Below, piece by piece: positions 30,703 through 61,957 of a stretch of 64,000 bases of DNA; position 1 is the stretch's first letter; every line of letters starts with the position of its first letter. Below the pieces are notes generated by a model. That model saw only the letters and a list, made by a program, of their open reading frames with translations, was not told where the DNA came from and ran no database searches. The stretch comes from Halopelagius longus (GTDB lineage Archaea; Halobacteriota; Halobacteria; Halobacteriales; Haloferacaceae). The DNA is taken from the NCBI RefSeq assembly GCF_900100875.1, contig NZ_FNKQ01000001.1, forward strand, positions 620,001 through 684,000, read 5' to 3'. Position numbers and translations under genes: made by a program.

Positions 30703-31119
30703 ATGTCCCTCCACCGACGACTCGCCCTCCGCGAACGCCTCCGCCCGTGGCACGGCCTGATGTTCGCCGCGTTCCTCGCCGGCACGGCGCGGACGCTCTC
30801 GACCCTGACGGAGCCGATTTCGCCCTCGGCGGTCGCTCTCGCGGCGTTCAACGGCCTGCTTTGGGTCCTCGGCTTCCAACTCACCGTCGGCATGCTCTGG
30901 GCGTACGCCGTCGAGTACTACAACGCGGGCGGAAAGTGGACCGACCTCCCGTTCCTCGTCCCCTTCGCCGTCGCCGTGGCCGTCGGCGTCGCAGTCGGCG
31001 TCGTCTTCGAGAACGCCGGCGGCGCGGTGTGGGCGGCGTTCTGGACGTTCGTCGTCGTCGCGGGACTCACCGCCGTCGTCGTCTGGGTTCGCGTCGGTTA
31101 CCGCGAGTCCGCCGCCTGA
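30703..31119 (+). CDS. Four-helix membrane protein, unknown function
   Basis: The 138-residue protein starts MSLHRRLALRERLRPWHGLMFAAF and has about four membrane helices, with a VEYYNAGGKWTDLP loop between helices two and three. I do not recognise a family. The frame is open upstream from a TTG at 30676, but the ATG at 30703 gives a tidy basic head before the first helix. The last 22 bases overlap the end of the convergent hydrolase gene. Confidence 0.65.
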   Translation: MSLHRRLALRERLRPWHGLMFAAFLAGTARTLSTLTEPISPSAVALAAFNGLLWVLGFQLTVGMLWAYAVEYYNAGGKWTDLPFLVPFAVAVAVGVAVGVVFENAGGAVWAAFWTFVVVAGLTAVVVWVRVGYRESAA

Positions 31120-31760
31120 AGGAACGAGAGGAGGAAGTCGGCCACCCGAACCGCGACTTTCCCGGCCTGTCCGATAAAGAAGTGGTCCGCGCTGAACTCG
31201 ACGACCGACTGGTGCGTCTCGCGGGCGCGTTCGACCACGGGTTCCCACTCGACGGTGTCGTCGCGCGTCCCGTACAGCACTTGGACGGGGACGGGAACGT
31301 CGTCGAACGACGCGACGGCGTCTAAGTCGTCGGCGAGGCGGGCCGTCGGCGCGAGTGCGGAGACGGCATCGACAGACGGCGTCTGTCGGCCTGACGAGCT
31401 TTGCTCGTCATCGTCCGTCGGCGCGCCCTCCGCGGCGGTCAGAAGCGCCACCGTCGCGCCGAAACTGAACCCGAACAGACCCACGCGGTCGTAGCGGTCC
31501 GCCGCCCACGCGACGGCGTTCCCCGCGTCCGCCGTCTCGCCGTACCCCTCGTCCCACGCGCCGTAGTCGAAGCGGAGGCAGTCGACGCCGCGGTCGGTCA
31601 GTTCGTCGCCGACGGCGACGAGTCTGTCGTCGCCGCGGTGTCCGCTCTGTCGGGGATGCGGCGGGCAGGCGACGACGCACGCCGTCGCGTTCCCGTCCTC
31701 CGCTTCGTCGAGCGACGCCCGGACGTCTCGACCCCCCGGAACGAGAACCGTCTCGGTCAT
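31098..31760 (-). CDS. Alpha/beta hydrolase (dienelactone-hydrolase-like) carrying an inserted peptide
   Basis: The 220-residue protein has the nucleophile elbow GFSFGA (Ser99), a likely acid in YGTRDDTVEWEP and the catalytic His in SADHFFIG. It resembles small haloarchaeal dienelactone-hydrolase-type esterases. Residues 118-131 (DEQSSSGRQTPSVD) are encoded by a two-hairpin DNA element also found in the 61514 gene; they interrupt the loop after the nucleophile helix. The gene is divergent from pspA, with one TTTTAA box midway between the starts, and its end overlaps the convergent membrane-protein gene by 22 bases. The substrate is unknown. Confidence 0.8.
   Translation of the reverse strand: MTETVLVPGGRDVRASLDEAEDGNATACVVACPPHPRQSGHRGDDRLVAVGDELTDRGVDCLRFDYGAWDEGYGETADAGNAVAWAADRYDRVGLFGFSFGATVALLTAAEGAPTDDDEQSSSGRQTPSVDAVSALAPTARLADDLDAVASFDDVPVPVQVLYGTRDDTVEWEPVVERARETHQSVVEFSADHFFIGQAGKVAVRVADFLLSFLQAADSR
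31371..31409 (-). repeat. In-frame two-hairpin palindromic element, copy A
   Basis: On the minus strand the element reads GACGAGC-AAA-GCTCGTC, a five-base spacer, then GACAGAC-GCC-GTCTGTC: two perfect 7-bp hairpins with 3-base loops. It lies wholly inside the alpha/beta hydrolase gene in frame. Compared with copy B at 61643, 32 of 39 positions match, the first stem is identical, and the reading frame through the element is the same. Confidence 0.85.
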
Positions 31761-61513: not shown

Positions 61514-61957
61514 ATGACGCGATTCGACGCCGACGAACCCCGCGAGCGACGGAAACTGTTCGCCGAGGCGTTCGCCGCCCACCGCGAACGCGCCAGCGCG
61601 TTCGTGACGTTCGAAGTCGACCACGAGGAGAACTCAGACGTTGACGAGCAGGGCTCGTCAGCCCGCCAGACGCAGTCTGGTGACGGCGAGGACGAGCCCG
61701 CGCCGTGGGTGCAGTTCGCCGACCAGACGTTCAACGTGGACGTGACCGACGAGGAACTCGACCGCCTGAAGTCGCTGTTGGACGAGTTCCCCGAGCTCCG
61801 CATCGACCGGATGGAGTCGCCCGACGCCGCGGAGGGGACGAACGTCCGCATCACCGCGCGGTCCGACGCAAACCGCCTCGCGGCGTTCGTAGACCGGACG
61901 TTCCAAGCGGTGTACGGCCGCGACGAGGACTACCGCGCGTGGGTCGCCGCGGTCTGA
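61514..61957 (+). CDS. Conserved haloarchaeal-type protein carrying an inserted peptide
   Basis: The 147-residue protein begins MTRFDADEPRERRKLFAEAFAAHRERASAFVTFEVD and has WVQFADQTFNVDVTDEELDRLKSLLDEFPELR. It looks like a soluble alpha/beta protein of unknown family. Residues 44-57 (DEQGSSARQTQSGD) are encoded by the second copy of the two-hairpin element and lie in a loop between strand and strand. A TATA-like TTTTTCTA lies about 28 bases before the ATG. Confidence 0.65.
   Translation: MTRFDADEPRERRKLFAEAFAAHRERASAFVTFEVDHEENSDVDEQGSSARQTQSGDGEDEPAPWVQFADQTFNVDVTDEELDRLKSLLDEFPELRIDRMESPDAAEGTNVRITARSDANRLAAFVDRTFQAVYGRDEDYRAWVAAV
61643..61681 (+). repeat. In-frame two-hairpin palindromic element, copy B
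   Basis: GACGAGC-AGG-GCTCGTC (61643-61659) is followed by a six-base spacer and CCAGAC-GCA-GTCTGG (61666-61680). It lies wholly inside the 61514 gene and in frame; 32 of 39 positions match copy A at 31371-31409 (minus strand), including the complete first stem, and both copies are read in the same frame. Confidence 0.85.

Follow-up and report, generated by a model that had tools for sequence, protein, structure and literature searches.

We detected in the genome of Halopelagius longus (a haloarchaeon, 3.87 Mb) a dispersed family of short palindromic units, each built of two adjacent stem-loops (7-8 bp, 3-nt loops) with GACG on both sides, that mostly stand in frame in unrelated protein-coding genes. 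Conservation concerns base pairing in the DNA and not the encoded amino acids. With two hairpins, no open reading frame, GACG edges and empty sites, the unit has the anatomy of a non-autonomous mobile element, and the family is probably a mobile 45-nt palindrome of this kind that tolerates being translated. A sequence-only reading of the window (the whole stretch of 64,000 nucleotides that was analysed, contig NZ_FNKQ01000001.1, positions 620,001 to 684,000) had pointed out two copies, A and B, of a palindrome that invades proteins; both are real, but the family is far larger, with 67 places in this genome. The features of the two copies are as follows, in positions of the window.

61514-61957, plus strand: copy B host gene, encoding a 147-aa protein (open reading frame; structure prediction).
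61637-61681, plus strand: copy B unit, 45 nt or 15 codons, DVDEQGSSARQTQSG (exact 45-nt gap in orthologs; covariance model R1).
61637-61641, plus strand: copy B left direct repeat, GACGT (left/right match within copies greater than in shuffled ones).
61642-61660, plus strand: copy B stem-loop 1, 8 bp, loop AGG (folding, alignment, covariation).
61664-61682, plus strand: copy B stem-loop 2, 8 bp with one G.T pair at 61665/61681, loop GCA (folding, alignment, covariation).
61682-61686, plus strand: copy B right direct repeat, GACGG (matches the empty site of the orthologs, GACGGCGAGG).
31098-31760, minus strand: copy A host gene, encoding a 220-aa alpha/beta-hydrolase-like protein (weak Pfam matches).
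31371-31415, minus strand: copy A unit, 45 nt, DDDEQSSSGRQTPSV (covariance model R1).
31392-31410, minus strand: copy A stem-loop 1, stem the same as in copy B, loop AAA (folding, alignment).
31370-31388, minus strand: copy A stem-loop 2, GACAGAC GCC GTCTGTC (folding, alignment).

The letters at 61643-61681 read as had been described, TGACGAGC-AGG-GCTCGTCA followed by CCAGAC-GCA-GTCTGG, and are translated in the frame that had been claimed, giving the peptide DEQGSSARQTQSGD within the 147-aa open reading frame. The palindrome stands at 61643-61681, but the insertion is longer than the 39 nt of that stretch: it measures 45 nt, at 61637-61681. Copy B is absent from the orthologs of Halogeometricum limi, H. 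pallidum, Haloferax sp. Q22 and Salinigranum, where a gap of exactly 45 nt coincides with the element at both edges and the flank to its right, GACGGCGAGGACGA, is conserved. By the copy B host gene, the closest named relatives are Halogeometricum species. The host protein gave no Pfam or NCBIfam match; in its predicted structure the insert falls within a disordered loop (residues 40-58, pLDDT < 50) with strands on either side (31-35 and 65-69). Rfam held no relevant family around copy B. The copy A host has weak Pfam matches to Peptidase_S15, FSH1, DLH and Abhydrolase_6.

Covariance model R1 scored copy B at 72.8 bits (E 6.8e-16) and copy A at 68.5 bits (31366-31415, minus strand). As previously noted, the first stem is identical in the two copies and the second differs but stays paired; the difference is one C-G to A-T pair change. 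At most one of 200 dinucleotide shuffles folds as well as a given 50-nt copy (z about -3 to -5), and the copies align with each other without gaps, so A and B are not chance palindromes.

A DNA search of the own genome (G000) with the 66 bases around copy B found 13 copies, gap-free over 50 nt, and their alignment gave the consensus GACGT, 8-bp stem with 3-nt loop, GSC, 8-bp stem with 3-nt loop, ACG. The model R1 returned 97 matches at E<=1 in this genome, which reduce to the 67 places at E<0.01 with strands merged; 31 of these score at least 43 bits, and chance hits in low-complexity, acidic coding DNA are probably part of the weak tail of model matches. In the sister species (G001) the model has 68 matches, and genomes of other genera carry up to about 50 copies. 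In the Haloferacaceae-level set, 101 of 119 genomes have matches at E<=1e-5 and the other 18 have none, so that composition alone does not create matches. Phylum-wide, 23 of 196 genomes matched at E<=1e-6, all in the same order and belonging to seven families; outside the order no match was found among the genomes searched at this threshold. Viral contigs gave 0 exact pattern matches, and no element was found in phage records. Most copies differ from one another, and the family may be old.

The unit length is mostly 45 nt, with variants of 51 and 54 nt; a second genus has units of 45 nt (58 copies), 51 nt (15) and 49 nt (one, without a confident coding frame). Tandem copies in the own genome are spaced by exactly 45 nt, and the arrays of this period at C1:491437/491482, C3:710625/710670, C3:67575/67620 and C3:742998/743043 of G000 encode 30-residue acidic inserts. 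A 57-nt version at C1:457855-457916 of G000 (L096) has both stems longer and a GAA loop in each. In locus L055, around 1500, a sense long-stem copy is followed directly by an antisense copy in one protein (TGDVDETRRISSANRNASRSGDADGRRPSGRRGSLGDA). A TAG second loop (GGACGTAGTCC) marks a subfamily of intergenic or non-coding copies, some 51 or 49 nt long (L034, L050, L287, L293, L294, L295), which possibly form a separate, non-translated lineage. In two low-GC genomes (G006 and G108, loci L199-L208), eight or more identical two-hairpin copies of about 50 nt lie antisense at the 3' end of IS1341-type tnpB, just upstream of the VVEAGSP tail; they have spread with the IS and may shorten TnpB by a few residues.

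Empty sites were observed repeatedly in presence/absence comparisons, all of them between species. The sister species has clean 45-nt empty sites for the copies at C3:600480, C2:258389, C3:625872 and C2:725950 of the own genome; that for C2:356589 has more divergent flanks, and C2:747875 shows a 42-nt difference. In the plasmid-borne merA gene, a 45-nt copy stands in Halorubrum trapanicum and Halomarina sp. between CTCGAC and GACGTCGAC, and seven homologs are empty there. In two genera the merA copies are 44/45 identical and their flanks about 78-80%. Insertion that is recent or repeated would explain this, as would strong constraint, and the comparison does not separate them. Two-hairpin inserts occupy three different sites among nine merA homologs, the further ones being in Salinigranum rubrum, Natrinema zhouii and Halorussus aquaticus (L236, L237, L239): one site holds 51 or 45 nt in S. 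rubrum and N. zhouii, and another 54 nt in all three species. In tgtA, the own genome (L311) and a genome of another genus (G076, L300) hold different copies at the same codon, a site that is empty in the sister species and in 25 other readable homologs. Different copies at one codon suggest independent insertion and a target wider than GACG, and the recurrence suggests a site preference.

Where closely related species share a site, in a set picked by model score, the cores are 95-100% identical and the flanks 84-91%. This core identity is higher than expected for inert remnants and speaks against the mobile-element reading, with the caveat that the pairs were score-selected; for the same reason, conservation in place as proof of function was set aside. 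In a small comparison independent of score, at the MutY site of G000 and G001, the nine core changes comprise six at unpaired positions, one compensatory pair and one wobble, with no pair broken. At another site common to both sister species (G000 C3:94585, L150:18095), element-like palindromes stand outside the usual frame; the changes in the flanks point to a different reading frame, and the palindromes could be chance or an old copy.

Selection for base pairing had been proposed from copies A and B, and the family shows the excess of paired substitutions that such a proposal implies. Of the cells in the 13-copy alignment, 96.2% are paired; both stems covary, and both sides change in 11 of the 16 pairs, with 34 double-change cells where 10.4 are expected and a covariation score of 0.465 against 0.150. 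None of 500 shuffles reached any of these measures, and shifting the partners abolished the signal. Folding energies are about 3-5 SD below those of shuffles with RNA and DNA parameters alike. It had been left undecided whether a DNA or an RNA structure is copied; the mispairs favour DNA. Among 125 distinct copies (2000 cells), G.T mispairs number 33 and A.C mispairs 32, and since G.U would be far better tolerated than A.C by a structure selected in sense mRNA, this equality suggests a constraint that is symmetric between strands. It points to a constraint acting on DNA rather than on mRNA. The existence of antisense copies is consistent with a DNA-level constraint.

Covariation itself is firm, and selection is one explanation of it. 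The other is templated correction from arm to arm (quasipalindrome repair), which would generate paired changes without selection for pairing, an account that we regard as possible without favouring it. The pair changes replace one Watson-Crick pair by another, and G.T or A.C intermediates are few; three apical pairs have switched together at one orthologous site (CGC/GCG versus ATC/GAT), and at one merA site the second stem differs between two species by 3 bp per arm. Such simultaneous changes of several pairs suggest that arm-to-arm correction contributes. It leaves the dispersal, the empty sites and the shared sequence unexplained, however, and so complements the mobile-palindrome reading and does not replace it.

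The edges of the unit carry a direct-repeat signal. Comparing columns 1-5 with 46-50 within copies, we detected excess matches at the variable columns 2, 4 and 5 versus 47, 49 and 50 (permutation p < 0.001 jointly), and the signal persists without one subfamily and in high scorers. It is what a 4-5-nt target duplication GACG(T) at GACG/GAC sites would leave. T occupies column 5 in 52 of 76 left repeats versus 28 of 76 right ones, an asymmetry that would also fit a fixed target plus an element end instead of a true duplication.

No resident mover of the IS200/IS605 type was detected. The Y1 transposase (PF01797) is absent from the own genome and from the sister species, and TnpB (PF07282) from the own genome, with the controls detected in these searches. 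The two species are among the most copy-rich, yet lack the Y1 transposase, and across the 119 genomes the copy number is 6.1 with Y1 and 5.5 without (p = 0.34). A resident Y1 transposase or TnpB as the mover was thus ruled out by absence and by the lack of correlation between Y1 and copy number. In the translations of the open reading frames neighbouring intergenic copies at seven loci, no transposase was seen. A mover since lost, one of another kind, or one on other replicons is possible.

Two families of known elements were weighed against these data. The units might be a minimal IS200/IS605 derivative, a terminal-only PATE made of the fused end hairpins of a TnpB/TnpA element and moved by a Y1 transposase in trans. 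IS605 ends are near-terminal palindromes, and the Haloquadratum terminal-only PATEs (PMC3119063), 52 bp long with strain-specific insertions, resemble our family in being haloarchaeal, palindromic at the ends and devoid of transposase; a two-hairpin sequence also lies at the 3' end of the IS1341-type tnpB genes in G006 and G108. We consider this derivation unlikely. The copies here stand in genomes without Y1 or TnpB (the own genome lacks both, G001 lacks Y1), their number is independent of Y1, they lie preferentially inside reading frames, and they show a direct-repeat signal, whereas IS605-type elements and PATEs leave no target duplication. The 4-5-nt repeat signal, statistically supported though asymmetric at column 5, would instead suit a MITE mobilised by a DDE transposase acting in trans and producing duplications of this length. 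A MITE appears somewhat more doubtful still, given that terminal inverted repeats are lacking, each end being its own hairpin of different sequence, and that the stems are free to vary in sequence, whereas a terminal repeat bound by a transposase would be fixed.

The copies are not scattered over reading frames. From a base of 137 copies, 65 are sense and in frame, eight antisense in the same register, one elsewhere and ten non-coding, the remainder of the frame calls being unclear; the second genus repeats the result (39 sense, four antisense, none other). GACG in haloarchaeal genes lies 33% in phase +0, 41% in the antisense register and 19% in phase +2, so the target alone would place about three quarters of insertions in codon register. 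It explains the register only, and the predominance of sense over antisense copies needs a selective filter, most simply the purging of basic or hydrophobic readings. All 65 in-frame copies have lengths in multiples of three, and stops in the sense reading occur in one of 65 coding versus four of ten non-coding copies (Fisher 8e-4). This avoidance of stops argues, indirectly and on the level of sequence, that coding copies are translated and not bypassed.

The hosts are many and unrelated, in line with the earlier remark that the copies sit in different gene families. Read from translations and Pfam, they include FtsY (two copies), LonB, MutS, MutY, TmcA, TgtA, EndA and PurC, further the pyruvate dehydrogenase E1 alpha subunit and glucose dehydrogenase-like, FAA-hydrolase and rhodanese/metallo-beta-lactamase proteins. 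The idea that the copies sit in acidic, linker-like spots holds for FtsY, LonB, MutS and copy B, but not for the helicase domain of TmcA or for residue ~162 of MerA, a globular enzyme.

An element acting at the RNA level, through mRNA hairpins that regulate expression or through ribosome bypass like that of the mitochondrial byp elements, could draw on the great stability of the hairpins as RNA (-22 to -28 kcal/mol, z about -3 to -5) and on the direct repeats of a GAC codon that flank the insert. It is nevertheless highly improbable: the sense strand has no wobble preference and antisense copies are present, and bypassing requires neither the avoidance of stops in coding copies nor lengths in multiples of three. 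A peptide motif selected as protein (a linker, a modification or targeting tag) would fit the sense frame and the similar peptide in unrelated proteins, but it hardly deserves credence, because residues change pairwise as base pairing dictates (residues 3 and 8, opposite each other in stem 1, are A/A in 33, D/S in 27 and V/T in 6 of 76 copies), copies also occur antisense and outside genes, and orthologs without the insert are the rule.

The mobile-palindrome reading can be put as a sequence of steps. Insertion would take place at GACG/GAC sites and leave a 4-5-nt direct repeat. Both GAC (Asp) and its complement GTC (Val) belong to the most frequent codons of haloarchaea, so that these target sites would mostly lie in codon register, and an in-register insertion would usually add exactly 15 codons in phase. 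The sense peptide, acidic, hydrophilic and stop-free, would be tolerated by halophilic proteins, and other readings, basic, hydrophobic or with stops, would mostly be purged. The hairpins would be kept as the DNA structure needed for movement, possibly together with arm-to-arm templated correction. The element may move as a folded single strand or a cruciform, by an enzyme supplied in trans which, in this genome, would be other than a resident IS200/IS605 Y1 transposase or TnpB. A more specific version, which we offer tentatively, is that of a selfish element made compatible with proteins by its target (GAC/GACG in register) and its sequence, so that genes would be its main habitat; its hairpins would be moved in folded form by an enzyme unrelated to Y1/TnpB and DDE movers, it would re-insert at the same codons across genera, and its stems would be kept by DNA-level correction.

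The kind of element is known. The MJRE of Methanocaldococcus jannaschii is a protein-coding palindromic repeat. The byp elements of yeast mitochondria are short, mobile hairpin inserts in genes with a repeated codon at their flanks, and are bypassed in translation; unlike them, the haloarchaeal insert keeps the frame, avoids stops in coding copies and is expected to be translated. The RPEs of Rickettsia are dispersed palindromes that stand in frame in unrelated, often essential genes, have intergenic copies too and encode no transposase (PMC2229807; PMC3733652), and coding palindromes of Wolbachia and M. jannaschii are cited in passages of PMC2229807 and PMC2996958. Our family shares with RPEs, the Wolbachia palindromes and MJRE the dispersed palindrome in frame in genes whose homologs lack it, a likeness that we take as one of kind, with no claim of descent. 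On the best reading it would be a counterpart of the Rickettsia RPEs, by analogy. It differs from them in its 45-nt, two-hairpin unit (RPEs are 105-146 bp), in being mostly intragenic with one dominant reading frame, and in its order-wide distribution.

The CGTC-tagged REPs (Di Nocera et al. 2013, PMC3733652), which have no dedicated transposase and include RPE-4/RPE-6 of R. conorii, are similar in their short 8-9-bp stems, hairpin pairs, intragenic copies and CGTC (= GACG) at one end. They differ in having loops of 4-5 nt, not 3, and an unpaired tail, mostly CCA, in lacking the GACG direct repeat at both edges, and in being intergenic where our family is intragenic. GACG stands at the right edge in most of our copies and also at the left, and it is frequent in haloarchaeal genes; the likeness of tags may be a coincidence. 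We found no earlier description of the haloarchaeal family in the open-access literature, to which our search was directed, subscription literature being outside its scope. What sets the family apart from the known elements is the size, the two-hairpin build, the intragenic habitat, the fixed register and the DNA-level covariation.

Protein-invading palindromes are known mainly from intracellular bacteria; this family would add to them an entire order of free-living archaea, several members of which are genetically tractable. With its many copies, clean empty sites and in-place variants, the family opens old questions to test: are such inserts translated and neutral, is pairing constrained in DNA or in RNA, and how are REP-like elements without a transposase moved? 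It also gives an origin for the 15-residue acidic inserts in FtsY, LonB, MutS, MutY, TmcA, TgtA, PurC and MerA, which is relevant to the alignment and annotation of these proteins.
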